A stretch of DNA of 64,000 nt from Microbacterium sp. Root61 (lineage in GTDB: Bacteria > Actinomycetota > Actinomycetes > Actinomycetales > Microbacteriaceae): contig NZ_LMGU01000001.1 of assembly GCF_001427525.1 (NCBI RefSeq), forward strand, positions 3,355,713 to 3,419,712, read 5' to 3'. Positions 38,911 to 50,522 of this stretch are shown piece after piece; position 1 is the first letter of the stretch, and every line of letters starts with the position of its first letter. The translations under genes were made by a program, and so were the position numbers. The notes beneath the pieces are model-generated. The model was given only the letters and a program-made list of their open reading frames with translations. It was not told the origin of the DNA and ran no database searches.

Positions 38911-38972
38911 CCGGCAAGCCTACGGCCGAGGCATCCGCTCGCCGCCGCGCCCCTCCCCGGGGCCCGTCACCC

Positions 38973-39018
38973 AACCCCCTATCGGATCCCCATGCACGCC
39001 GGGGGTTTCTGCGGGGTT
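38973..39018. promoter_or_regulatory. G-rich boxes upstream of first iniB-like gene
   Basis: In the 190-base gap before the iniB-like gene there is AACCCCC at 38973-38979, GGGGGTT at 39001-39007 and GGGGTT at 39013-39018. Similar GGGGGTT boxes stand upstream of the second iniB-like gene (45721 and 45742). The neighbouring LuxR/MalT-type regulator is the obvious candidate to bind them, since MalT itself recognises G-rich boxes; this is inference. Confidence 0.4.
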
Positions 39019-39100
39019 GCTCCCGATGCCGGACCAGACGCGAATCTCCAGACTCGTACCAACGCGTCGCCTTGGCGCTCCACGAACGAAGGAAGAGATC

Positions 39101-40360
39101 ATGGCTGTGAACGACAACCTCAACGTTCTGGGCATCCAGACCAACCTCGACACGGACCTCCTGTCGAACAACGATGTACTTTCGGGAAACACCGACAACT
39201 CGGACAACTCGGACAACTCCGACAACTCCGACAACTCGGACAACGACTTCCTGTCGGGCAACACGGACAACTCGGACAACTCCGACAACTCGGACAACTC
39301 GGACAATTCCGACAACTCCGACAACTCGGACAACTCCGACAACTCGGACAACTCCGACAACTCGGACAACTCCGTCGACACGGACGTGGATGTCGACGTC
39401 GAGGACTCGTTCAACGAGGACGACTCGTACCAGGACTCGATCAACGACTCGTTCCAGGTGAACGACTCGTTCCAGGACAACTCGATCCACGACTCGGCCA
39501 ACGACAACTCGGTCAACGCCGGCATCCGCCAGTACAACTCGGGCTTCGGTGACATCAACTTCATCGACGACAGCGAGGGTGGCGGCGGCGGCATGGTCGG
39601 CCTCATGGGCGCGGGCAGCGGCGGAGACTTCGACTTCGATGTCGACGCACGGTCCACGAACAACGACCAGTCGGTCAACCAGAACATCACCACCAACTCG
39701 GGCAGCGGCGGAGCCGCCCTCGCGGTCGGCGGAGATGCGGATGGCGGCTTCGGCGGCGTGCTCTCGGGTGCCGGCGGCGGCGACAGCGGCAACGGCGGTG
39801 CGGGTGGCAGTGGCACCGGCGCGGCAGGCGGCGCAGGCGGCGCAGGCGGCCTCGGTGGTCTCGGCAGCGGCGGTGCCGGTGGGGACGGCGGCCTCGGTGG
39901 TGCCGGAACGGGCGCAGCCGGTGGCGGCAGCGGTGGTGCCGGCGATGCCGGTTCGCTGGGGGTCGGCGGCGGCCAGGGCGGCAGCGCGGGGAACGCCAAC
40001 GCGAATGGCGGCGACGCCAACGGTGGAAACGTGAGCCAGTTCTTCAACCAGGACTCGGTGATCGTCTCCGGCGACGGCTCATATGGTGCCGGCGGCAACG
40101 TCGACGTCAACAACATCAACACCAACATCGATGTGGGGGACATCTCGATCGGGAACACCTGGAACACGGACTCGTTCAACGACGACCTCGACTTCTCCGA
40201 CAACTGGTCGATCAACGACTCGTTCCAGGACAACTCGGACAACTCGATCAACGATTCGTTCCAGGACAACTCGGACGACCACGGGGTCGATGTGGACGTG
40301 GATGTGGACAACTCCAACGTCGGAAGCCCGTTCGGCGACGCGAACGAGATCGACTTCTGA
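39101..40360 (+). CDS. IniB-like Asp/Asn/Ser-repeat and glycine-rich protein
   Basis: A 419-residue low-complexity protein. Residues about 32-91 are mostly Asp-Asn-Ser triplets, residues 92-130 repeat NDSFQDNS-like units, a Gly/Ala-rich stretch fills about 200-305, and the C-terminal part has QFFNQDSVIVSGDG, DVGDISIGNT and further NDSFQDNS units. There is no signal peptide or membrane segment. The segments VNQNI and QDSV-x-SGDG recur in the protein at 44801, which also has an IniB-type N-terminus. Together with the two dynamins downstream this marks it as the IniB-position gene of an iniBAC-like locus. ATG at 39101 has AAGGAAGAG before it. Cellular role unknown; its extreme composition suggests an extended, disordered polymer. 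Confidence 0.75.
   Translation: MAVNDNLNVLGIQTNLDTDLLSNNDVLSGNTDNSDNSDNSDNSDNSDNDFLSGNTDNSDNSDNSDNSDNSDNSDNSDNSDNSDNSDNSDNSVDTDVDVDVEDSFNEDDSYQDSINDSFQVNDSFQDNSIHDSANDNSVNAGIRQYNSGFGDINFIDDSEGGGGGMVGLMGAGSGGDFDFDVDARSTNNDQSVNQNITTNSGSGGAALAVGGDADGGFGGVLSGAGGGDSGNGGAGGSGTGAAGGAGGAGGLGGLGSGGAGGDGGLGGAGTGAAGGGSGGAGDAGSLGVGGGQGGSAGNANANGGDANGGNVSQFFNQDSVIVSGDGSYGAGGNVDVNNINTNIDVGDISIGNTWNTDSFNDDLDFSDNWSINDSFQDNSDNSINDSFQDNSDDHGVDVDVDVDNSNVGSPFGDANEIDF
39194..39373 (+). repeat. 9-base tandem repeat encoding Asp-Asn-Ser
   Basis: Units of GACAACTC(G/C) repeat about five times at 39194-39238 and about twelve times at 39266-39373, separated by an insert encoding DFLSGNT. The unit length is a multiple of three, so copy-number change alters protein length without a frameshift. 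The last base alternates irregularly between G and C. Confidence 0.9.
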
Positions 40361-40373
40361 TCCCTTCGCACAC

Positions 40374-40410
40374 GTTCTGCCCGGCCGCCCCTGGGGTGGC
40401 CGGGCAGAAC
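40374..40410 (+). terminator. Hairpin between iniB-like gene and small acidic gene
   Basis: A 13-base perfect stem (GTTCTGCCCGGCC and its complement) around a G/C-rich 11-base loop starts 14 bases after the stop of the iniB-like gene. It should end most transcripts there and lower expression of the dynamin genes relative to the iniB-like gene. Confidence 0.75.
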
Positions 40411-40478
40411 ACCATTTACCGAACGCGGTGGTGGTGCGAAACTGAACCTCAGAAGCTTCCGCGCGAAGGGTGGGGAAG

Positions 40479-40769
40479 ATGAGCGAGGATGCAGTGAACG
40501 GGCGCAGCGGCGTCGAGCCGCCCCGCGATCCCGACGGCGCGCAGACAGTGGGACACGACTCGGACGTCGGCGCGGACGCCGCGTCGAGCCTCTGGGGAGC
40601 CGACATCGACGTGTTCTCGGATCCGGCGGAGACGGGGATGTTCTCCGACGAGATCGAGAACATCGATGCGTCTGATTGGGATGCGGACGCCTCCGGCATC
40701 TGGGGGGATGACGGAGACGGCGCCGGCCTCGACGACGGCGGTGCGATAGGACTCGACTTCCCGCTCTGA
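40479..40769 (+). CDS. Small acidic protein of the iniBAC-like locus
   Basis: A 96-residue, strongly acidic protein rich in Asp, Gly, Trp and Ser (for example SLWGADIDVFSD and ASDWDADASGIWGDDGD), with no membrane segment and ending in LDFPL. The ATG at 40479 has a GGGGAAG sequence next to it; a GTG three codons upstream is possible. It stands between the iniB-like gene and the first dynamin gene and follows a terminator, so it may have its own promoter in the 118-base gap. I know no homologue; its composition suggests a disordered adaptor or a cousin of the IniB-like proteins. Confidence 0.6.
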   Translation: MSEDAVNGRSGVEPPRDPDGAQTVGHDSDVGADAASSLWGADIDVFSDPAETGMFSDEIENIDASDWDADASGIWGDDGDGAGLDDGGAIGLDFPL

Positions 40770-40836
40770 TCTGGGATTCGCTTGCGCATCGGATGCGGCG
40801 GCACGGCATCGATCTGTCACGATGGAAGAGGGACAC

Positions 40837-42723
40837 ATGCTCGAATCGGGCAGAAGCGAGGAATTCGCCGTGGTCGAGAGCGAAGACGCATCGTCGACAG
40901 CCGAGGTGGCCGACATCACCGCACTCGTGCGCAGCGTGAGCGAATTCGCCGCCGACACGGGCCGCGCGGACTTGGCCAAGCGGCTGGAAAGCACCCGATC
41001 GCGCCTGATCGATCCCGATGTCCGCGTCATCGTCGTGGGGGAGTTCAAGCAAGGGAAGAGCAAGCTCATCAACGCGCTCGTCAACGCACCGGCGTGTCCG
41101 GTGGACGACGATGTCGCCACGAGCGTGCCGACCTCCGTCAGCTATGCCGACGAAGCGTCTGCGTGGATCCTCACCCGCGAGGAGGACTCGTCGACCGGCT
41201 CCGCGATCGAACGGCGGCAGGTGTCGCTGGAGGAGCTGCCGCAATACGTGTCGGAGCGGGGCAATCCGGGCAACGAGCGCAATATCGTCTCGGCGGAGGT
41301 GCTTCTGCCGCGCGAGTTCCTCAAAGGGGGTCTTCGCCTCGTCGACTCGCCGGGCGTCGGCGGGCTCGAGTCCTCCAACGCCTTGGCGACCCTGTCGGCG
41401 CTGTCCTCCGCCCACGCCGTCCTCCTCGTCTCGGATGCCTCGCAGGAGTACACCGAACCGGAGGTGCAGTTCCTCAAACATGCGATGCGGATCTCGCCGA
41501 ATGTCGCCGCTGTGCTCGCCAAGACCGACCTGTACCCCCAGTGGCGCGAAATCGAGGAGATCGACCGCGGTCGTCTGCGCGACGCCGGGGATGTGCCGAT
41601 GTTCTCGGTCTCCAGCGACCTGAGACTGCTCGCCGCGGAGTTGAGGGATCGGACTCTGAACGACGAGTCGGGATTCCCGGCGCTCGTCACGCACCTGCGC
41701 CGCGAGGTCCTCGGCCGCGCCGAGGTCATCCGCCAGCGCAGCGCCGTGCACGACCTGGTCTCGGTCGTCGATCAGGTCAGCGTTTCGCTCCGCTCCGAGC
41801 TCAACGCACTGCTGCATCCCGAGGACACACCTCGGATGATCGCCCAGCTCGAAGCGGCCAAGGCACGCGCCGACGAGTTCCGTGGACGGTCGGCACGGTG
41901 GCAGGTGACGCTCACCGATGGCATCGTCGACCTGATCGCAGACATGGAGCACGACCTGCGTGATCGCCTGCGCAAAGTGCAGCGCGAGGCGGAGGCGTCG
42001 ATCGACGAAGGCGACCCCGGTCCGATCTGGGACGAGGTCACCGCGTGGCTCGAGCAGCGGGTCGCGGGAGCCGTGTCCGAGACGTTCGTCTGGACGGACG
42101 AGCGCTCTCGCTGGCTCTCCGAGGAGGTCGCGGAGCTGTTCAGCCAGGGTGAGGCTGCGCTTCCCGCCATCGAAGTCGGTGACACCCGCGGCGTGCTGGA
42201 TCCCGTCGAGGGGGTCGGGGGACTGGACTCGGGGCGCCTCGGGGCGGGCGAGAAGATCTTCATCGGTGTCCGAGGCTCGTACGGCGGTGTGTTGATGGTG
42301 GGTCTGGCGACCGGCCTGATCGGCCTGTCGCTGATCAACCCCCTCTCGCTGCTGGCCGGAGTGCTCGTCGGCCGCCGGGCGTACCGCGAGGACATGACCG
42401 CGAGACTGTCCCGGCGCCAGCACGAGGCGAAGATCCTCGTGCGCCGATACATCGACGAGGTGATCTTCCAAGTCGGAAAGCAGCTCAAGGACCGTCTGCG
42501 GACGGTCCAGCGCGCGGCCCGCGACCACTTCGGTTCGATGGCCGAGGAGCTGCACCAGTCGCTCTCAGAGGCACTCACAGCCTCGAAGCAGGCCGCCGGC
42601 ACCTTCACATCGCAGCGCGACCAGCGGGTCATGGTCCTGCAGGAGCAGCTCCGGCGGCTGGACGCCCTTTCCGCCGAGCTGCCCGCGCTGCCGCCGATCC
42701 GCCGCGAGGCTGTGCGTCGGTGA
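40837..42723 (+). CDS. iniA: Dynamin-like GTPase, IniA type
   Basis: A 628-residue bacterial dynamin-like protein. The GTPase domain shows G1 VVGEFKQGKSKL at residues 66-77, the G2 threonine in SVPTSV, G3 VDSPGVGG at 169-176 and G4 VLAKTD. Long helical regions follow, with a hydrophobic paddle-like segment MVGLATGLIGLSLINPLSLLA near residues 487-510, as in mycobacterial IniA, which binds and remodels the membrane. The ATG at 40837 has AGAGGGA before it; one five codons upstream lacks this. It overlaps the second dynamin by four bases. The pair plausibly protects the envelope under stress, by analogy with iniBAC. Confidence 0.88.
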   Translation: MLESGRSEEFAVVESEDASSTAEVADITALVRSVSEFAADTGRADLAKRLESTRSRLIDPDVRVIVVGEFKQGKSKLINALVNAPACPVDDDVATSVPTSVSYADEASAWILTREEDSSTGSAIERRQVSLEELPQYVSERGNPGNERNIVSAEVLLPREFLKGGLRLVDSPGVGGLESSNALATLSALSSAHAVLLVSDASQEYTEPEVQFLKHAMRISPNVAAVLAKTDLYPQWREIEEIDRGRLRDAGDVPMFSVSSDLRLLAAELRDRTLNDESGFPALVTHLRREVLGRAEVIRQRSAVHDLVSVVDQVSVSLRSELNALLHPEDTPRMIAQLEAAKARADEFRGRSARWQVTLTDGIVDLIADMEHDLRDRLRKVQREAEASIDEGDPGPIWDEVTAWLEQRVAGAVSETFVWTDERSRWLSEEVAELFSQGEAALPAIEVGDTRGVLDPVEGVGGLDSGRLGAGEKIFIGVRGSYGGVLMVGLATGLIGLSLINPLSLLAGVLVGRRAYREDMTARLSRRQHEAKILVRRYIDEVIFQVGKQLKDRLRTVQRAARDHFGSMAEELHQSLSEALTASKQAAGTFTSQRDQRVMVLQEQLRRLDALSAELPALPPIRREAVRR

Positions 42724-44393
42724 ACGGGCCGACCACGCAGGAGGCGGAGGAGCTGCTTCGCACGGCCGCGTCCGTGTATGCCGACGACCCCGCGGCCATG
42801 GCGGTCATCGGGAAGCTCGAGCAGCGACTGAGCGAGCCTCTGCGATTGGCGATCGCCGGGATGGTCAAGGCGGGCAAGTCCACGCTGCTGAACGCGATGC
42901 TCGGCGAGCAGATCGCCCCGACGGACGCCGGCGAGTGCACGCGGGTGGTCACGTGGTACCGATACTCGCCGACGCCCTCGATCACGATGCACCTGAACAA
43001 CGGTGAGACCCGCCGGATGCCCGTGCACCGCGAGCGCGGACGTTTGGCCCTCGGTCTGGGCGGCCTTCCCGCGGAGGATGTGCAGTGGCTCGAGGTCGGG
43101 TGGCCGCTGGATGCGCTCAGATCGGTGATCCTCATCGACACGCCGGGCATGGCTTCGATGTCGAAGGAGATATCGCTGCGCGCGACCCGATTCCTCACCG
43201 GGGAGGAGGAGCCGTCCTCGGCGGACGCCGTCATCTATCTCATGCGTCACCTGCACGCGTCGGACGTGGCGTTCCTCGAGGCGTTCCGTGACACCGCGCC
43301 CGGAGGCGGGCAGACGGTGTGCGCTGTGGGGGTGCTGTCCCGATCGGACGAGATCGGCTCCGGCCGGATCGACTCGCTGCTGTCCGCGGCCAAGGTGGCC
43401 CGGCGCTACGAGCACGAAGCCGATCTCGCCTCTTTGGTGCTCGGTGTGATCCCCGTCGCGGGTCTGGTCGCCGAGGGTGCCAGGACGCTCCGCGAGAGCG
43501 AGTACATCGCCTTCCGCCAGCTCGCGGCGCTCGACCGGGTCGAGCGGGAGAAGCTCTTCGTTTCGGCCGATCGATTCGTCGCCGACACCGCCACGACGAC
43601 CTTGAGCGCGACTGTGCGCAGCGATCTGGTGAGCCGGTTCGGCATTTTCGGCGTGCGTCTGGCGACAGCGTTGATCCGGGGCGGGACCGCAAGCTCGTCC
43701 GAGCTGGCCGAGGCGATGGTGCAGCAGAGCGGGCTCGTGCAGCTGCAGCAGTTCGTGCGTACACAGTTCCGCACGCGGGCGACGACTCTCAAGATCCGCG
43801 GAGTGCTGCTCGCGCTCGACAGGCTCATCCGGGACAATCCCCGCGACGGCGTGGACGTGATCCACGCCGCCAGCGAACGGATCTCGGCATCCGCGCACGG
43901 CCTTCGTGAGCTGACTCTCATCGCCAGCGCGCGGTCGGAGGGACTGCCGTTGACAGATCAGGACAGTGCGGAGGCGCTGCGGATCGTCGGCGGGGCGGGC
44001 GCGTTGCCCTATCTCCGACTCGGTGCGGCAGAGGACGCCGACGTCACGGTGTTGCGGGAACTGAGCGGGGCCGCACTCGCGCATTGGCGCACACTGGCCG
44101 AGTCCCCACTCACCTCCAGCGCCGCGATCGGTGTCTGCCGGGTGGTCATCCGCAGCCTGGAAGCGCTGGCAGCGGACCTCGGTCCGGATCCCGCGGCGAC
44201 GGCCGTCGCCGCGTCAGAGGTCGCCGCCGCCGACGATCCCCTCGGCTTTGCGGATGTCGTGGCGACGGGCGGACCAGGCGATGGCCGGGGGCAGGACGCT
44301 GCTGAGCAGAGCGAGAAGCACAAGCCCCGCCTGGGCTGGAAGAAGAAGCAGAAGGGACTGTCCGCGGTCACCGATCGCCACCCACTCGGATGA
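42720..44393 (+). CDS. iniC: Dynamin-like GTPase, IniC type
   Basis: A 557-residue dynamin-family GTPase. G1 is AGMVKAGKSTLLNAM at residues 46-60, G2 the threonine of GECTRVV, G3 LIDTPGMAS near residue 137, and the G4 position reads VLSRSDE rather than the usual (T/N)KxD. It is shorter than IniA and lacks an obvious hydrophobic paddle, as in mycobacterial IniC, so the two may work as a hetero-oligomer. The GTG start is coupled to the IniA stop (GTGA). The last 60 codons overlap an oppositely oriented gene. The C-terminal tail is charged (KHKPRLGWKKKQKG) and not conserved-looking. Confidence 0.85.
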   Translation: MNGPTTQEAEELLRTAASVYADDPAAMAVIGKLEQRLSEPLRLAIAGMVKAGKSTLLNAMLGEQIAPTDAGECTRVVTWYRYSPTPSITMHLNNGETRRMPVHRERGRLALGLGGLPAEDVQWLEVGWPLDALRSVILIDTPGMASMSKEISLRATRFLTGEEEPSSADAVIYLMRHLHASDVAFLEAFRDTAPGGGQTVCAVGVLSRSDEIGSGRIDSLLSAAKVARRYEHEADLASLVLGVIPVAGLVAEGARTLRESEYIAFRQLAALDRVEREKLFVSADRFVADTATTTLSATVRSDLVSRFGIFGVRLATALIRGGTASSSELAEAMVQQSGLVQLQQFVRTQFRTRATTLKIRGVLLALDRLIRDNPRDGVDVIHAASERISASAHGLRELTLIASARSEGLPLTDQDSAEALRIVGGAGALPYLRLGAAEDADVTVLRELSGAALAHWRTLAESPLTSSAAIGVCRVVIRSLEALAADLGPDPAATAVAASEVAAADDPLGFADVVATGGPGDGRGQDAAEQSEKHKPRLGWKKKQKGLSAVTDRHPLG

Positions 44394-44804
44394 CATCAGC
44401 ACCAGGATGACCTGGACGCCGAACGTCGCCAACTGCCACCACCGCACGTGCGCACGCCTGCTCATGAAGGACACGAGGAGCGTGATCTGAACGAGCAGGA
44501 CACCGACCATCACCCCGAACACGATCCAGAACACGATGTCGGATGCCGTGTCGTAGGTCTGATCGCTGCGTCCCTCGACCACGGCGCGCACCCGGTCGGC
44601 GATGAGCGGCAGCAGCTCCTTGCGGATCACGAAGAAGTACACGGCCGTGAAGCCGCCGACCGCGAAGCTGAGGATCCAGAAGAACTGACTCATCCGCACC
44701 GAGAACGGCGGAGTCAGTTTGACCAGCACGGGTGCGATGTTCGGGTTCTCCGTCGGCGGGCGCGCCGGCGCCTGCCGACCCCCATCCGTCGGGACCTCGG
44801 TCAC
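44214..44804 (-). CDS. Four-TM membrane protein of the iniBAC-like locus
   Basis: A 196-residue protein with a polar 38-residue N-terminus and four hydrophobic segments, beginning at QFFWILSFAVGGFTAVYFFVI, IVFWIVFGVMVGVLLVQITLL, WWQLATFGVQVILVLMSS and SLLLLLPAQAGLVLLALLSSV. No known motif is seen. The GTG start overlaps the stop of the second iniB-like gene by four bases, so the two are coupled. Its last 60 codons, including the fourth segment, are antisense to the 3' end of the iniC-like gene. It may hold the dynamins or the IniB-like protein at the membrane; that is inference. Confidence 0.72.
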   Translation of the reverse strand: MTEVPTDGGRQAPARPPTENPNIAPVLVKLTPPFSVRMSQFFWILSFAVGGFTAVYFFVIRKELLPLIADRVRAVVEGRSDQTYDTASDIVFWIVFGVMVGVLLVQITLLVSFMSRRAHVRWWQLATFGVQVILVLMSSEWVAIGDRGQSLLLLLPAQAGLVLLALLSSVLPPAIAWSARRHDIRKAEGIVGGGDL

Positions 44805-45631
44805 GGCTCCTCGACAGGTTCTTCGACGTACGCGTCCTCCACGACCACCCCACCCGGGTCCTCGGTCTCGTACGTGTCCGCAGCGGCGAGGTCGGCGCCG
44901 AGCGGGTCCTCGGCCGGTTCGGTCGCCGCAACGGCGGTCGTCGCCGCAGCCTGGACCGCGTCGCCCGCGACCCCCATCGCGTCGTCCACGATGTCGGAGA
45001 CGGCCGCGGCCGCGGCATCCCCGTCCTCTTCGGCCTGCGGCTCATCCGCGTCGGCAGCCGCAGCCGCGTCGGCATCCGCGGGCGCGGCATCGTCGTCGCC
45101 GTCCTGGGTGACCGTCGTGTTGAAGCTGCCGTCGTTCGCGGTGTTCCCGATCGAGACGTCGCCGATCGTCACATCGACGTCCGAGTCCACGACGGTCGCG
45201 TCGTCCCCGGCGGCCACGGCGCCGTCGCCGGAGGCGACCACCGAGTCCTGGTCGAAGATCTGCGACACGTCGCCGCCGTTGGTCCAGATGTTCTGGTTGA
45301 CGGACTGGTCGACGACCGTCGACCGCGCATCTATCGTCGTGAACTGATTCACGATGCGGGAGATCTCGCGGATCACTTCGTTGGTCTCCCGCGGCTCACC
45401 CCCGCCGCGCGGATCGACGGGCTGGGTGACGACTCTCGTCGTGACATGAGCGTTGTCGACGATGACAGGCTTGACGGCCTTGACATCTGCCAGGCAGGCA
45501 TCGCCCACCCCGCTTCTGGCCATCATCGTCTGCGGCGATTCTGCGAATTCATCCACGGCCGCGGGATCTCGCAGCAGGCTCATGATGAATGCGATCAAAG
45601 CGTCGGCTATGGTCGCAACCGGTGTGCTCAT
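44801..45631 (-). CDS. IniB-like protein with N-terminal IniB domain
   Basis: A 276-residue protein. The first 50 residues (TIADALIAFIMSLLRDPAAVDEFAESPQTMMARSG split over helices) match the IniB N-terminal pattern of a hydrophobic helix, LLRDPAA, then a Phe and a short helix. The middle part has VNQNIWTN, VSQIFDQDSVVASGDG and VTIGDVSIGNT, shared with the protein at 39101. The rest is acidic and Ala-rich with no fold visible. The ATG at 45631 has GAGGAG six bases before it. It follows the regulator gene after a terminator, so it has its own promoter, and it is coupled to the membrane protein gene downstream. Confidence 0.78.
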   Translation of the reverse strand: MSTPVATIADALIAFIMSLLRDPAAVDEFAESPQTMMARSGVGDACLADVKAVKPVIVDNAHVTTRVVTQPVDPRGGGEPRETNEVIREISRIVNQFTTIDARSTVVDQSVNQNIWTNGGDVSQIFDQDSVVASGDGAVAAGDDATVVDSDVDVTIGDVSIGNTANDGSFNTTVTQDGDDDAAPADADAAAAADADEPQAEEDGDAAAAAVSDIVDDAMGVAGDAVQAAATTAVAATEPAEDPLGADLAAADTYETEDPGGVVVEDAYVEEPVEEP

Positions 45632-45714
45632 TTTCGGCTCCTCAGCGTGGTCGAACATGGGTATCCCGCAGGATAAGACTGGTGATTTTCAGGCTATGTA
45701 CTTGTCATCGGGGC

Positions 45715-45738
45715 AGCATCGGGGGTTGCCCCGATGCT
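45715..45738 (-). terminator. Hairpin after LuxR-type regulator gene
   Basis: AGCATCGGGG and its complement form a perfect 10-base stem with a four-base loop, nine bases after the stop of the regulator gene on the - strand. It separates the regulator transcript from the second iniB-like gene. The loop strand includes one of the GGGGGTT boxes. Confidence 0.65.
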
Positions 45739-45748
45739 GGTGGGGGTT
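45721..45748. promoter_or_regulatory. G-rich boxes upstream of second iniB-like gene
   Basis: GGGGGTT occurs at 45721-45727 and again at 45742-45748, about 90-115 bases upstream of the iniB-like ATG at 45631. The same heptamer appears before the first iniB-like gene. One copy overlaps the terminator hairpin and the other the regulator stop codon, so either use is possible. Confidence 0.35.
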
Positions 45749-48323
45749 ATGAGGGGGGTCGTGCGGCCGCACTCGGGTCGGCGTCACCCGTGACGCCGGT
45801 GTGCTCGGCCCCGCCGGCCGACTGCTCGACGACGACGCGGAGCTTCGCGACGAGGTCCGAGCGCGAGGTCGCCCCCAGTCGACGCCGGATGTGGGCGATG
45901 TGGTGTTCCGCTGTGCGCGGCGAGATGAAGATCGTCTCGCCGATCTCGGCGTAGGTCTTGCCCTGCAGCACGAGGCGGGCGACGTCCCGCTCGCGTTCGC
46001 TCAGGACCGTGCCGTCGGAGCCCGGGAGCGCCGGGGCGTCCGCCGCGCCGACACCGACCGGCTCGCGCGTGCCCTCGGTGGGGTGGAGCTCGCGCGCACA
46101 GGACAGCAGGCGGGCGGCGACCTTGCGATCGGTGGATCGACTGGCGCCATGACCGGCGAGGCGTGCGCCGTCCCAGCCGAGTCCTGCCGAGGCGAGGCCG
46201 TGTGCGGCCGCTTCCACGGCGTCCGCGTCGACGGATCCGGCGAGGCATGCGGTCCAGACGCGGCCGGCCTGCGCCATGACCGCGGCGATGGGGCTGTCGG
46301 GAGCTGCCTGCAGGAGCGCCTGGGCGTGCGGCTTGAGGTCACTCGGACGATTGAGCAGGATGCCGCGCTGAACGCCGGTCCAGCGCAGATGTGCCGACCA
46401 GATCGGCGGCGACCCCAGCTGGTCCACGATCTCCAGCGCTCGCGCGAAATGCGTCTGCATCCGCTCGGCGTCGCCCACGCGTGCCGCGGCGGTGAGCAAT
46501 TCGGTGAGCGGCTGCAGGAGGTAGAGATCCACCTCGACGTGCAGCCCGGTGTCGCGCACCTCGGCCCACACGGCCTCCAGTCGAGCGGCGTCCTCGTATC
46601 GTCGCGCAATGGCGACGCGGATCGCCTGCGCGAAGAGATCGTCGCGCGGAGTGCGTGCCGCGGAGCACTCCAGGGCGCGATCCAGGGCCTCCCGAGCCGC
46701 CAGCGGCCGTGATCGCTGCAGCGCCAGCCATGCGCGCCACAGCAACAGGCGTGGTCGCGCCCAGTCTCCGCCCTGGGCTCCCCGGATGGCGTCTTCGATC
46801 ACGTCGTGAGCGATCTCCAGATCTCCGGTGTTCAGCGCGACGACGGCGGCGACGACGGCGGGGAGCTCGGGGATGGGTGCCGAGGTCGCCGAAGAGGTGT
46901 AGATCTCGGACGCGCGCACCAGGTCGGCCACGGCAGCCTCCGTGCCGTCGGCGCGCAGAGTGGCTCGCAGGCCACGATCCATCAGCTCCATGGCCACGCC
47001 CAGTGTCGTGGGCAGAGCCTCCTGCCGCCCGATCGGCGGAACGGCCCTGCCCGAGCCGATCGCGGCGATCGTCGCGCGGGCCTGCGAGGTCGGCGACGTC
47101 GGGGGGAGTGACTGGTACACGGCATCGCCGGTGCGCAGCATCGCGCGCATCGACCACACGGCGGCAGAGGTGTCGGCGATGCGATCGCCGTCGCTCGCGG
47201 CATCGGAAGCGGAGAGCTCGTCGATGATCGCACCGGCCGCGTCGATGTCTCCCGTCGCCCACGCAGCCTGCGCTCGTCGTCCGCCGAGTTCCCCCGCTGC
47301 TGCGCCGCAGCGAAGGGCATCGTCGTAGAAGTCGAGGGCGCGGCGGGGGGTGCTCTCCAGCATCCGGTCGCCGTGGGCCACCAGGGCTGCGGCGAAGCCG
47401 GGATCGCGCACGCCGGTGATCCACCGTCGATAGTCCGGGTCATCGACCGCCCCTGCACCGTCTGCGGCGAGGACGTCGCCGAGGTCGATCAGCCGACGCA
47501 CCGGGAGGCTCGCGCGGACCGACGACTCCACGAGCGGGACGGGACGGCCGTTGCGGGTCAACAACCCCTCGGCGTACCCCTTGGCGATCGCCTCGGCCCC
47601 TCCGTCCAGAAGTCGCGGGCCGGGGGCCGGGGCCACGCACAGGGCTTCGATCTCGTCCCGAAGCTTCGTCGGGAGCGAGTCGATGCGGTGGAGGACACGA
47701 TCCTCGAGGGTTCGTCCGAGAGCGGTGTGGCGGGGGTCGTCCGCGCAGTCGCGCACGTCGTGGAGGGCGAGCGCCTCGGACACGAGCCACGACACTCCGC
47801 CCGTGAGGTGCAGGATGTGGTCGACGCAGGAATCGGAGATCACTCGATCGCCCGCGGTGAGATAGGTCAGGACGTCGGAACGCGACACATGCCCGAGCAC
47901 GATCGCGGAACGGGTCCGTTCCAGCGGACGGGTGATGAGGGTGAGTTCGTCGAGCCGGGGCCACGGTCGGCTGGCGACCACGAGCGCCGCGTCGGGATCC
48001 TCCGCCCGCGCGCGCAGGTCGGCGATCTGGTCCGCCCCGAGGAGGTGGAGGTCGTCCACGAGGAGCACATGATCCTGCGGCACGCGGGCGACTTCCGTGG
48101 ACTCGACGAGCAGACTAGCTTCGGCCGGGGCTTCCGACAGCAGGCGATGCAGTTCGCGCAGCATCGTCGACTTGCCGGATCCCGCCGTGCCCACCACCAC
48201 GGCGCGCGCGGGTCCGGTCGCAGGCGTGGCGAGTGCGGTCATCGTGGGACGCGCCTGGCGTTCCCAGATGAATCTATGGGTTTCGCCTGGGTCAGCCAGG
48301 ACAGGTGAAGGCAGCGTGGACAT
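45747..48323 (-). CDS. LuxR family transcriptional regulator with ATPase domain (MalT/STAND type)
   Basis: An 858-residue regulator. A P-loop VVVGTAGSGKSTMLREL at about residues 42-58 and Walker B VLLVDDLHLL near 86 form a STAND-type ATPase; a long helical region of TPR-like repeats fills residues about 270-740, and the C-terminus has a LuxR HTH (LSERERDVARLVLQGKTYAEIGE and SPRTAEHHIAHIRRRLG). This architecture is that of MalT, which oligomerises on an inducer and ATP. In mycobacteria a regulator of the same build and similar size (Rv0339c) stands beside iniBAC, so this is its likely counterpart. The ATG at 48323 lies 20 bases after the Hsp70 stop. Confidence 0.85.
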   Translation of the reverse strand: MSTLPSPVLADPGETHRFIWERQARPTMTALATPATGPARAVVVGTAGSGKSTMLRELHRLLSEAPAEASLLVESTEVARVPQDHVLLVDDLHLLGADQIADLRARAEDPDAALVVASRPWPRLDELTLITRPLERTRSAIVLGHVSRSDVLTYLTAGDRVISDSCVDHILHLTGGVSWLVSEALALHDVRDCADDPRHTALGRTLEDRVLHRIDSLPTKLRDEIEALCVAPAPGPRLLDGGAEAIAKGYAEGLLTRNGRPVPLVESSVRASLPVRRLIDLGDVLAADGAGAVDDPDYRRWITGVRDPGFAAALVAHGDRMLESTPRRALDFYDDALRCGAAAGELGGRRAQAAWATGDIDAAGAIIDELSASDAASDGDRIADTSAAVWSMRAMLRTGDAVYQSLPPTSPTSQARATIAAIGSGRAVPPIGRQEALPTTLGVAMELMDRGLRATLRADGTEAAVADLVRASEIYTSSATSAPIPELPAVVAAVVALNTGDLEIAHDVIEDAIRGAQGGDWARPRLLLWRAWLALQRSRPLAAREALDRALECSAARTPRDDLFAQAIRVAIARRYEDAARLEAVWAEVRDTGLHVEVDLYLLQPLTELLTAAARVGDAERMQTHFARALEIVDQLGSPPIWSAHLRWTGVQRGILLNRPSDLKPHAQALLQAAPDSPIAAVMAQAGRVWTACLAGSVDADAVEAAAHGLASAGLGWDGARLAGHGASRSTDRKVAARLLSCARELHPTEGTREPVGVGAADAPALPGSDGTVLSERERDVARLVLQGKTYAEIGETIFISPRTAEHHIAHIRRRLGATSRSDLVAKLRVVVEQSAGGAEHTGVTGDADPSAAARPPS

Positions 48324-48343
48324 CTCGATGGCGCATCCGTCGA

Positions 48344-50260
48344 TCAGACCGGTTCGCCCGGCGACGGAGTCGGGTCGGGAGTAGACGGCGGCGGTTCTTC
48401 CGCAGGCTGCGCAGGCGGGTCCGCGGGAGGATCGCTGGGTGGGGGATCGGCGGGCGGGTCCACGGGCGGGTCCACCGGCGGATCGACGGGCGGATCCGTG
48501 GGGCCGGGGTCGACCGGCGGGTCGGTCGGGCCCGGGTCGACGGGCGGATCCGTCGGGCCCGGGTCGACGGGCGGGTCGGAGGGGTCGGAGTTCGCGGGCT
48601 CCTCCTCCGCAGGAGGATCGGCGGCCGGACCCTGCGGAGAGGTGGTGTGCGGTGCGCCACCGCCGGACGTTCCGAGGGGTGCGGGCGGTGCGGGCGCGGC
48701 GATCGCGCGGGGTGCGTCGGGCAGGCGCTCGATGGCCTCCCGGCGCGGATTGCCGCGCGGCGTCGGAGCGTCGGGCGTCGTCGGCTTCGACGCCTCCACG
48801 ATCGGGCCACCGGCCGAGACCGGTGTAGTCCCGGCGGCGGCCGCCTGGTCGCCCCAATCGAGCCCCAGCCATTCGGTGAAGGTCTCCGGCTCGGCCTGCG
48901 CCGAGATGGCACCGCTTCCCAGCTCCGCGCTCGTCGCGATGATGACGCCGCAGCTGAGGATGATCGCGCCCCCGGCCATGGCGGCAGCGGCCGGAATTCG
49001 ACCGAAGCGCCGGCGTCGTACCGCGGCCTGCGCCGGTGCGGCAGCGACACCGGGTGTCGCGAGGGCAGATGGCGGGGTATCGACGGCGTCGCGCGCGACG
49101 CTGCCGATCGCGGCATTCGCGGCTTCGGCTCCCGCCAGCGGTACCAGAGCGAGCGCTACGGCCGCCGTATCGGTCTTCGCGCTGTCGGCGAGGGCGAACG
49201 CGGCGCCGAGCGCAACGATCGCCTTCGGATCCGCGTCGATCGCTATCGGACGGTCGAAATGCTCGGACAGCAGTTGCGAGATGCGCGGTATCCGCGAAGA
49301 CCCTCCGGTCAGCAGAATGGCCTGCAGGTCGCCCGTTTCGATGCCGGCCGAGTCCAGGGCGGTGTCCAGAACGTCGATCGTGCGCTCGACGCCGCCGTCG
49401 ATCATGGCCTCGAACTCCGACCTCGTCAGACGCACGGTGGTGGCAGTCTGGGCGACGAGCACCGGCACGACCGCTTCCGCATCGAAGGACAGCGCCTCCT
49501 TCGCGGCGACGCATTCGCGGCGGAGTGCGGCGAGGGCGACGCGGGACGCGGGGTCCGCCGCGAGGTCGGTCACGGAGAGGCCCGCCGCGTCGATCGTGTG
49601 GCGCAGGACCGCATCATCGAAGTCCGCGCCGCCGAAGTCTGCGAGGCCGGTCGGTTCTCCCACCATGCGGACGCCGCCATCCGGCTCCTTGCGCAGGATC
49701 ACGGCGTCGAAGGTGCCGCCGCCGAGGTCGTAGACGGCCAACGCCGCGCCGACGGCCAGCGGCGTCGTCGTCTCGTAATGGCGAGCGGCGGCTTCAGGCT
49801 CGGTGATCACCTGGACATCGGTACGGACTTCGCGAGCGATCGCGGACGCGACGAGGCCGGCGCGATATCCGCCCCATGTCGCAGGCACGGTGGTGGTGAT
49901 CGCGGCGGGCTGGCTCCCTTCGCGTTCCACGACGGTGTCCAGCACCCATGCGACCATCCGGGCGAACAGGTACTCGGGAGCGAATCGATGCTCGCCCGCG
50001 ACGATCGGGACGTCGTCGCCGATCCGGCGTTTGAACTCGCGGATCAGCCGTTCGGGCTGCGCCAGACCACGTCGTTCGGCGGCTTCGCCGAAGAGCAGGT
50101 CGTCCTCGGTGACGAAGATCGCGCTCGGCGTGCTGTCAGAGCTTCGTCCCAGACCGAATGCCGAGATGGCGAGCGCGCCATCGGATCCGACGCGGGCCGT
50201 GGACGCAGCGGTCCGGCTCGTCCCCACGTCGACAGCAAGAAAGTACGACGTCGATGCCAT
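48344..50260 (-). CDS. Hsp70-like protein with membrane segment and proline-rich tail
   Basis: A 638-residue protein. Residues 1-365 form an actin/Hsp70 ATPase domain: LAVDVGTSRTAAS (phosphate 1), TVPATWGGYRAGLV, ITEPEAAARHY, VYDLGGGTFDAVIL (phosphate 2) and AILLTGGSSRIPRIS (adenosine site). There is no recognisable substrate-binding domain or lid; instead a membrane segment (AAAAMAGGAIILSCGVIIATS, about 420-442) leads to a disordered Pro/Asp tail with PTDPPVDPG units at about 555-610. The ATG at 50260 is preferred; a GTG four codons upstream is possible. It is probably cotranscribed with the LuxR gene and divergent from groES. It may sense or act at the membrane for the iniBAC-like system. 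Confidence 0.85.
   Translation of the reverse strand: MASTSYFLAVDVGTSRTAASTARVGSDGALAISAFGLGRSSDSTPSAIFVTEDDLLFGEAAERRGLAQPERLIREFKRRIGDDVPIVAGEHRFAPEYLFARMVAWVLDTVVEREGSQPAAITTTVPATWGGYRAGLVASAIAREVRTDVQVITEPEAAARHYETTTPLAVGAALAVYDLGGGTFDAVILRKEPDGGVRMVGEPTGLADFGGADFDDAVLRHTIDAAGLSVTDLAADPASRVALAALRRECVAAKEALSFDAEAVVPVLVAQTATTVRLTRSEFEAMIDGGVERTIDVLDTALDSAGIETGDLQAILLTGGSSRIPRISQLLSEHFDRPIAIDADPKAIVALGAAFALADSAKTDTAAVALALVPLAGAEAANAAIGSVARDAVDTPPSALATPGVAAAPAQAAVRRRRFGRIPAAAAMAGGAIILSCGVIIATSAELGSGAISAQAEPETFTEWLGLDWGDQAAAAGTTPVSAGGPIVEASKPTTPDAPTPRGNPRREAIERLPDAPRAIAAPAPPAPLGTSGGGAPHTTSPQGPAADPPAEEEPANSDPSDPPVDPGPTDPPVDPGPTDPPVDPGPTDPPVDPPVDPPVDPPADPPPSDPPADPPAQPAEEPPPSTPDPTPSPGEPV
48450..48592 (-). 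repeat. 27-base direct repeats encoding PTDPPVDPG
   Basis: The proline-rich tail of the Hsp70-like gene is built of near-identical units (about three full nine-residue units followed by PPVDPPVDPPAD variants). All units keep the reading frame. Confidence 0.75.
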
Positions 50261-50450
50261 ATTCAGCCCCACAACTGATAGGCGGATGCAAGTGATCCAC
50301 CAGCAGGTTTACCACTCTTGGGCAGGATTGGCGAGGGTGTGTCGGGGAAACGTTCACCCGCGGCCTGACGATGTAGAGCCATGGTGACCTCCACCTGATC
50401 AGAGGGCTCCTCGCTCGATCTGATACACACGTCGAGCGGATGACGTCGGA

Positions 50451-50477
50451 TTGGCACTCGCGTTGCATGAGTGCCAA
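50451..50477 (+). promoter_or_regulatory. CIRCE element 1 (HrcA operator)
   Basis: TTGGCACTC, nine bases, GAGTGCCAA: a perfect 9-base inverted repeat matching the CIRCE consensus TTAGCACTC-N9-GAGTGCTAA except for a symmetrical change. It overlaps the -35 region of the groES promoter. Confidence 0.85.
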
Positions 50478-50491
50478 CGGTTCCCTAGACT
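50463..50491 (+). promoter_or_regulatory. Candidate groES promoter
   Basis: TTGCAT and TAGACT are 17 bases apart and lie between and within the two CIRCE elements, 66 bases before the groES start. The arrangement is right for HrcA repression. Confidence 0.6.
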
Positions 50492-50495
50492 GTCA

Positions 50496-50522
50496 TTAGC
50501 ACTCGGAGTATGAGGGTGCTAA
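50496..50522 (+). promoter_or_regulatory. CIRCE element 2 (HrcA operator)
   Basis: TTAGCACTC, nine bases, GGGTGCTAA: one mismatch to the CIRCE consensus in the right arm. It begins 45 bases after the first element and just after the -10 box. Confidence 0.9.

Follow-up and report, generated by a model that had tools for sequence, protein, structure and literature searches.

The stretch of DNA analyzed here, referred to as the window, comprises 64,000 nucleotides of Microbacterium sp. Root61 (contig NZ_LMGU01000001.1, positions 3,355,713 to 3,419,712) and contains an iniBAC-type locus at positions 39101-50272. The list of open reading frames (ORFs) and family searches place eight genes there, arranged in two convergent arms. 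An earlier note, made from the sequence alone, had named two dynamin-like GTPases, two IniB-type proteins, a small acidic protein, a four-transmembrane (4-TM) protein, a LuxR-type regulator and an anchored Hsp70, and all eight were found. The genes and the two predicted regulatory regions are as follows.

38976-39041, + strand: predicted IniR operator and promoter of arm 1, from a strict two-part pattern and nhmmer model tr12
39101-40360, + strand: iniB1, an IniB-type low-complexity protein without the IniB N-domain, with a 54-residue core in common with IniB2
40479-40769, + strand: small acidic protein of 96 residues, an ORF 3' of a purine-rich stretch
40822-42723, + strand: iniA homologue (dynamin 1), a dynamin-like GTPase with a hydrophobic loop (PDB 6j72, Dynamin_N)
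42720-44393, + strand: dynamin 2, a dynamin-like GTPase in the iniC position (Dynamin_N), its start overlapping the iniA stop
44214-44804, - strand: 4-TM membrane protein, the 3' end of its gene antisense to the dynamin 2 gene
44801-45658, - strand: iniB2, an IniB with a folded N-domain (NF038175 over cut-off)
45684-45764, - strand: predicted IniR operator and promoter of arm 2 (model tr12; GGGGN5CCCGATGC), with a palindromic element at 45716-45737
45747-48323, - strand: iniR homologue, a P-loop ATPase with a long middle region and a LuxR-type helix-turn-helix (HTH) (NF038181, GerE), start predicted
48344-50272, likely start ATG 50260, - strand: anchored Hsp70 with an HSP70 ATPase domain, a transmembrane (TM) helix and a tail

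Arm 1 runs in the order iniB1, acidic protein, iniA and dynamin 2, and arm 2 consists of iniB2 and the 4-TM gene. Read from right to left, the minus strand encodes Hsp70, IniR, IniB2 and the 4-TM protein. Three long antisense ORFs (38920-42555 on the - strand, 41772-44084 on the - strand and 48305-50278 on the + strand) were rejected as genes and taken as mechanical.

The earlier note also related the locus to mycobacterial iniB-iniA-iniC with its large LuxR-type regulator, and the matches to IniA, the IniB N-domain and IniR agree with this. The dynamin 1 protein matched the M. smegmatis IniA structure 6j72 over residues 32-612 (PDB search, E 4.7e-127) as well as Dynamin_N (E 1.9e-20); it contains the motifs G1 GEFKQGKS and G3 DSPG, and its residues K234 and D236 are invariant among 17 aligned sequences. 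Dynamin 2 also matched Dynamin_N (E 4.2e-11; G1 GMVKAGKS, G3 DTPG) and may be orthologous to IniC, judging by position and profile only. IniB2, which sits in the opposite arm from iniA, matched the IniB N-domain profile NF038175 (E 3.3e-15, 55.7 bits against a cut-off of 40); its AlphaFold2 model has helices in residues 15-67 at a predicted local distance difference test (pLDDT) score of about 95, with most of the remainder at low confidence. The first gene of the iniA arm, iniB1, encodes SDN repeats and a Gly-rich middle and shares its 54-residue core with IniB2 at 54% identity (E 2e-12), while profile searches gave it no IniB N-domain and no Pfam or NCBIfam match. For the acidic protein, NCBIfam gave nothing and Pfam a single match below threshold (E 0.11). 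The 4-TM protein is predicted to form a helical bundle (AlphaFold2, pLDDT 89.4), and its gene and the dynamin 2 gene overlap tail to tail by 180 bp (44214-44393). The regulator matched the IniR profile NF038181 (E 7.5e-99, 332 bits) and combines a P-loop ATPase (Walker A GTAGSGKS, Walker B VLLVDD) with a C-terminal LuxR HTH (GerE, E 4.8e-14). The identification of the locus as an extended iniBAC/IniR system is supported.

The Hsp70 protein matched PF00012 (HSP70) at E 2.6e-37, with the best stretch at residues 93-360, and carries the ATPase motifs DLGGGTFD and GGSSRIP. One TM helix, preceded by basic residues, is predicted at residues 428-446, and the Pro/Ser/Thr/Asp-rich tail comprises 196 residues, 29% of them Pro. 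The Pfam search gave no substrate-binding domain match, so the protein was not filed as a DnaK chaperone. Its gene lies head-to-tail with iniR, 20 bp from the predicted iniR start. Two inverted repeats resembling CIRCE (controlling inverted repeat of chaperone expression) are present at 50451-50522, between groES (50557, + strand) and the Hsp70 gene, and probably serve groES control. HrcA/CIRCE control of the Hsp70 was considered and rejected: the repeats precede groES, yet in three loci (L090, L094 and L099) the cassette lies beyond groES, flanked by groES and rarD.

For comparison, loci were annotated with profiles built from the window genes: 40 from class and family genomes, 80 named loci, which are the best 80 of 500 and are biased to close relatives, and 20 more. 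In later counts L091, L152, L137 and L162 were dropped as duplicates of L053, L057, L049 and L059, near-duplicates such as L055 and L106 were kept, and L128 and L133, on short contigs, were counted as co-directional without their upstream half. L176-L185 enter only the profile annotation and the exact-box count, and the set leaves out G044, G100, G020, G099, G484 and second copies in G204 and G259. The contig of L103 is labelled Planococcus sp. APC 4015 and carries a Microbacterium-type locus with a groES and rarD flank; this record is probably mislabelled or contaminated. In G422, a mycobacterial-family genome, the iniA match on contig C1 (569933-571724) is in two overlapping pieces, and the gene may be split.

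As a block, the gene set was found again in 46 loci of the window type and 45 of a co-directional type, some of them truncated at contig ends. Window-type loci have the convergent form of the window, which is the form seen in Microbacterium. In the co-directional form, found in Arthrobacter, Agromyces, Naasia and relatives, hsp70, iniR, iniB, iniA and iniC lie on one strand and the 4-TM gene is convergent. A further arrangement occurs in 15 of 18 loci of the mycobacterial-family genus g102, where iniR-hsp70 is divergent from iniB(s)-iniA-iniC.

The two main forms differ in part of their gene content. An iniB1-type gene without the N-domain was found in 42 of 46 window-type loci versus 2 of 45 co-directional loci, and a homologue of the acidic protein in 24 and none, respectively. 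Both forms mostly have the 4-TM gene (43 of 46 window-type loci, 43 of 45 co-directional ones), and its tail overlaps the second dynamin gene in 38 of 43 and 30 of 43 of these, respectively; because of this overlap both arms, when induced, would yield overlapping antisense RNA. At least two iniB1-type open frames lie in arm 1 of 13 of the 46 window-type loci (for example, L047, L054, L055, L103, L106 and L116), some of which could be fragments of a single gene. The gene immediately 5' of iniR, in the same orientation and with a gap of up to 60 bp or with overlapping open frames, is hsp70 in 37 of 42 window-type, 39 of 43 co-directional and 18 of 28 distant loci. Judged by hydropathy only, a TM helix comes after the ATPase part of the Hsp70 ORF in 34 of 37 cases from window-type loci, in all 40 of the co-directional form and in 40 of 46 from distant loci; several distant Hsp70 proteins without a TM helix are probably true DnaK. 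The combination of ATPase domain, TM helix and tail 5' of iniR is also found in Arthrobacter-type loci and in 15 of 18 g102 loci.

These counts qualify the suggestion of the earlier note that the additional genes and the convergent layout form an extended version of the system in Microbacteriaceae. The extension itself stands, and the convergent layout with a separate iniB1 arm is particular to one clade, which is also found in Phycicoccus and in Propionibacteriaceae metagenome-assembled genomes (MAGs). The Hsp70 does not hold up as an extra of the family, since it is also present in the Arthrobacter-type and g102 loci, nor is the 4-TM gene particular to the clade. In a tree of 98 IniA proteins, made with a quick method and drawn with midpoint rooting, all 46 window-type rows fall on one branch (Shimodaira-Hasegawa-like approximate likelihood ratio test 100) that nests among the co-directional rows, with seven distant rows as outgroup. 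The convergent layout was seemingly derived from the co-directional form. Phycicoccus elongatus and the Propionibacteriaceae MAGs lie inside the window-type branch, which suggests that the block was transferred between families, with misbinning possible for the MAGs.

The block also behaves as a unit across genomes. Among 394 Actinomycetes genomes, iniA (E<=1e-30) was found in 53, IniR (E<=1e-25) in 38, all among those 53, and the IniB N-domain over cut-off in 37, all among those 38; G126 has IniR and no IniB N-domain match. Three further genomes have weak, sub-cut-off IniB N-domain matches, none of them among the 53, and the 15 iniA genomes without IniR carry more distant dynamins (best E 2.9e-114). 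In the host's own family, 12 of 120 genomes matched iniA at 1e-10, nine of them strongly, the host's own genome included. The genes flanking the locus, a THUMP-like methyltransferase gene and groES, are adjacent and about 100-160 bp apart in all six same-genus genomes without iniA. The co-occurrence tables and these joined flanking genes indicate that the block seems to be gained or lost as a whole. The co-occurrence search proposed in the earlier note thus did not reveal scattered homologues, and the 394 genomes together with the six empty sites argue against a chance cluster.

Patchy occurrence in the family, clean empty sites and apparent transfer to other families could also indicate a system against phage or antibacterial attack, exchanged as an island, with a regulator of the STAND type (signal transduction ATPases with numerous domains) and dynamins that contain membrane breaches. 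The LeoBC and LeoA models of PADLOC, which have no curated cut-off, match the dynamins (E 5.9e-17 to 2.2e-6, 25-60 bits), and HSP70 parts occur in GTPase-centred conflict systems (PMC7159879). However, at E<=0.001 no PADLOC model matched Hsp70, either IniB or the 4-TM protein, and the single match to IniR is to the HTH. In addition, the mycobacterial relatives answer cell-wall drugs (Boot 2017, PMC5760070). We consider a defence role quite improbable.

The regions before iniB genes contain repeated CCCCTAA-type boxes, often two or three, followed by GGGG, a short spacer and CCCGAYGC. In the window, the arm 1 promoter has a degenerate box, CCCCTAT, at 38976-38982 and GGGGTTGCTCCCGATGC at 39013-39029, and the arm 2 promoter has GGGGN5CCCGATGC on both strands. 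The 4.02-Mb genome has a single copy of the pattern CCCCTA-N14-44-GGGN6CCCGAYGC, the one before iniB1, and the control has none. GGGGN5CCCGATGC gives seven matches in six places genome-wide, with one in the control. Two of the six places are the arm 1 and arm 2 promoters; the other four were rejected as further operators, being inside mechanical ORFs, those at 546176 and 3413150 in permease-like ones.

Profile models were used to search for this element. Model opI was trained on 35 co-directional iniB promoters. Model tr12 combined an opI-type set with window-type iniB2 promoters and had no iniB1 promoter in its training; its window-type rows came from 35 of 40 iniB2 loci, some of them mis-picked (the window's own, which lies downstream of the element, and at least L095, L097 and L100; also L140 in the co-directional set). 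Run against both strands of the 46 window-type loci (791,682 bases in total), opI gave 19 matches at E<=1, each of them before iniB1 or iniB2; one, in L090, was left unclassed in a recount as its iniB2 start was not parsed. Model tr12 recovered the iniB2 promoter in 39 of 40 loci and the iniB1 promoter in 27 of the 34 whose sequence extends 2 kb upstream; there were four other matches, two of them unparsed iniB2 promoters. A reversed-sequence control over 127 loci gave one match (E 0.39). When the window was searched with four short stretches, the best two tr12 matches were arm 2 (E 7.2e-5) and arm 1 (E 5.6e-4); the arm 1 match covers 38983-39041 and had an E value of 0.0062 in the 46-locus set (nhmmer).

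The density of exact CCCCTA[AG] boxes before iniB, compared with the rest of each locus, was 6.86 vs 0.045 per kb in distant loci (about 150-fold), 5.62 vs 0.021 in co-directional loci and 1.1 vs 0.014 in window-type loci. Exact boxes were counted in the distant loci because profile matches there are few: opI gave five in 36 loci, all before iniB, tr2 gave four, one of them elsewhere (L173, E 0.55), and tr12 gave three, one of them before hsp70 (L166, E 0.88). Of the distant loci, 24 of the 28 that have IniR carry a box of the form [AT]CCCCTA[AG] in the 3.5 kb upstream of iniA, against 1 of the 18 without, where "without" means none in the sequence stretch, the genomes of L066, L071, L172 and L173 having IniR elsewhere. 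The sole box-bearing locus of the latter group is L071, whose genome (G224) has IniR on another contig. None of the models gave a match (E<=1) before hsp70-iniR in window-type or co-directional loci. This fits Boot 2017 (PMC5760070), in which IniR is reported to bind immediately ahead of iniBAC, to have iniBAC as its only target and not to be induced itself.

Comparison of the promoter sequences thus indicates that a common element precedes both arms. The shared motif predicts joint induction, and co-regulation of the arms is supported at the level of sequence. The alternative is that the arms are not co-regulated and that the motif in front of the two iniB genes is a functionless duplication. 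The genes iniB1 and iniB2 share a core and may share ancestry together with their promoters, the window's boxes are degenerate, and GGATGC-like words seem common in the genome (an impression, uncounted). However, a model built on a different layout and different genera finds the element, the 150-fold box enrichment in distant loci follows IniR, and the four other genomic places of GGGGN5CCCGATGC are inside ORFs. A motif without function is improbable in our judgment.

The reading we favor, with somewhat better than even confidence, is that the locus is a self-contained envelope-stress response of the iniBAC/IniR kind, in which IniR would switch both arms, Hsp70 would control IniR and the dynamins would act on the membrane. 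First, the Hsp70 tail, which would lie outside, and the single TM helix that tethers the ATPase domain may sense wall damage, which is one of the less certain steps. Secondly, the ATPase domain would release or activate IniR at the membrane, by analogy with E. coli MalT and the maltose uptake system that holds it. Third, IniR would bind the CCCCTA/GGGG...CCCGAYGC elements and activate both arms together. Lastly, both dynamins, together with the 4-TM protein and the IniB proteins as scaffolds, would remodel, bud off or reseal damaged membrane. The last step is extrapolated from work on IniA, which shows membrane scission, termed relatively low by its authors (PMC6715688); IniA/IniC have also been linked to vesicle release (PMC11832169, citing Gupta 2023). 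The Hsp70 step is the weakest part of this mechanism. A transmembrane link is called for because Boot 2017 infers that the sensing system is periplasmic (PMC5760070).

Several findings weigh against this reading. First, the regulator scores under the NF038181 equivalog cut-off of 750 bits, and it is therefore termed an IniR homologue and not filed as an equivalog. Secondly, the yield of opI was low (6 of 34 iniB1 and 12 of 40 iniB2 promoters), and in the window it gave E 0.27 for arm 1 and 1.7 for arm 2, with a non-promoter site between them at 0.78. Third, exact CCCCTA[AG] is present in only 10 of 40 window-type iniB2 regions, and no exact [AT]CCCCTA[AG] is present at either window promoter, iniB1 having CCCCTAT and iniB2 none. 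Our confidence was lowered because the window's own boxes are degenerate. The genomes of L066, L172 and L173 have IniR elsewhere and no box, and L061, L062, L064 and L065 have IniR and no exact box. In addition, iniB1 may be a duplicate of iniB2 including its promoter, so part of the motif likeness may be by descent. Lastly, three points concern the Hsp70 step: L169, L170 and L175 have Hsp70 after iniC and none 5' of iniR; the Hsp70 tree, a quick tree with long branches and an unfinished careful search, does not unite the mycobacterial and Micrococcales anchored forms, so a single origin of the anchored form is conjectural; and IniR works in M. tuberculosis, a species outside this Hsp70 comparison.

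Such Hsp70 genes after iniC would also suit a different division of labor, in which Hsp70 works for the dynamin/IniB machine, as an effector or a local chaperone, and owes its place next to iniR to operon history, and IniR alone senses trehalose or ATP through its MalT-like and ATPase domains. Trehalose induces iniBAC in M. marinum (PMC5760070), and the P-loop is kept in IniR of all 41 window-type loci examined. However, in 29 of 43 co-directional loci the IniR profile match starts only at position 120 or later and the P-loop region, with Walker A, is missing (in this count L124 is at a contig edge and the profile match of L138 is split), and in 23 of these 29 hsp70 ends 0-10 bp before IniR. 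The loci with P-loop-less IniR are mostly from Micrococcaceae, include L125, L134, L143 and L145, and keep the promoter motif and, mostly, the upstream Hsp70. The Hsp70 also has a TM helix and no substrate-binding domain match, and its gene belongs to the pair with the regulator and is not behind the motif. In addition, the periplasmic sensing inferred by Boot 2017 (PMC5760070) is beyond a soluble IniR alone. An effector role for Hsp70 is therefore rather doubtful, although possible.

In the loci with P-loop-less IniR, Hsp70 is left as the only recognized ATPase of the pair. We suggest tentatively, as a reading clearly less likely than not, that the anchored Hsp70 works with IniR as a new type of transmembrane signalling pair, general in actinobacteria, in which an ATPase domain gates a MalT-like activator. 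The Hsp70 would here have lost the substrate-binding domain and gained in its place a TM helix and a tail exposed to the wall. In five Arthrobacter loci (L058, L129, L130, L132 and L141) IniR is P-loop-less, and about 7-10 kb downstream of iniA lie one or two further LuxR genes that resemble iniR and do encode a P-loop. These extra genes could supply the missing P-loop.

Several known systems resemble parts of this locus. Mycobacterial iniB-iniA-iniC with IniR (Rv0339c / MMAR_0612) has the same IniA, a paired second dynamin, an IniB N-domain protein and an IniR-type regulator in tight linkage, and the loci of the mycobacterial family likewise have box-type elements before iniB. Unlike mycobacterial iniBAC, the Microbacterium locus has two convergent arms, an IniB1 without the N-domain, a 4-TM gene and an Hsp70 directly before iniR. 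A dnaK-like gene adjoins iniR in M. smegmatis, to which Boot 2017 gives one sentence, the only place where dnaK appears in its text (PMC5760070); beyond this likeness, the neighbor described here has the ATPase domain-TM-tail architecture and recurs across orders. In E. coli, control of MalT (cited in PMC5760070) is similar in that a MalT-like activator is proposed to be held at the membrane, but here the proposed tether is not the maltose uptake system; it is the ATPase domain of Hsp70, which brings a TM helix of its own. LeoABC and CjDLP1/2 also bring several or paired dynamin-like GTPases together, but have no IniB, IniR or Hsp70 partners in the parts compared (PMC4159319, PMC6104087). GTPase-centred conflict systems, from actinobacteria among others, combine GTPase genes with HSP70 lacking the peptide-binding domain; their GTPases are GAP1-N2 GTPases, however, and dynamin, IniA, IniB and iniBAC are absent from that text (PMC7159879).

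Boot 2017 (PMC5760070) describes the iniBAC promoter as the one that ethambutol and isoniazid induce most strongly, yet we found no IniR binding motif there: its text uses "motif" nowhere outside the references and does not contain "palindrom", "operator" or "consensus". A largely title-level literature search found nothing published on a two-arm form, on an anchored Hsp70 of this architecture or on an IniR operator. What is new here is the operator-like promoter motif before both arms, while the dnaK-like neighbor of iniR is already in print.

The host family of this locus is not known for mycolic acids or a mycolate layer, so the basic cue of the system need not be mycolate-specific. The locus offers a predicted operator that recurs across the class, and its two promoters make co-regulation testable in a non-mycobacterial genus. 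The Hsp70 is a candidate transmembrane partner through which a cytosolic regulator could learn of events outside the membrane. If this is true, the Hsp70-IniR pair would supply the missing transmembrane link for iniBAC.

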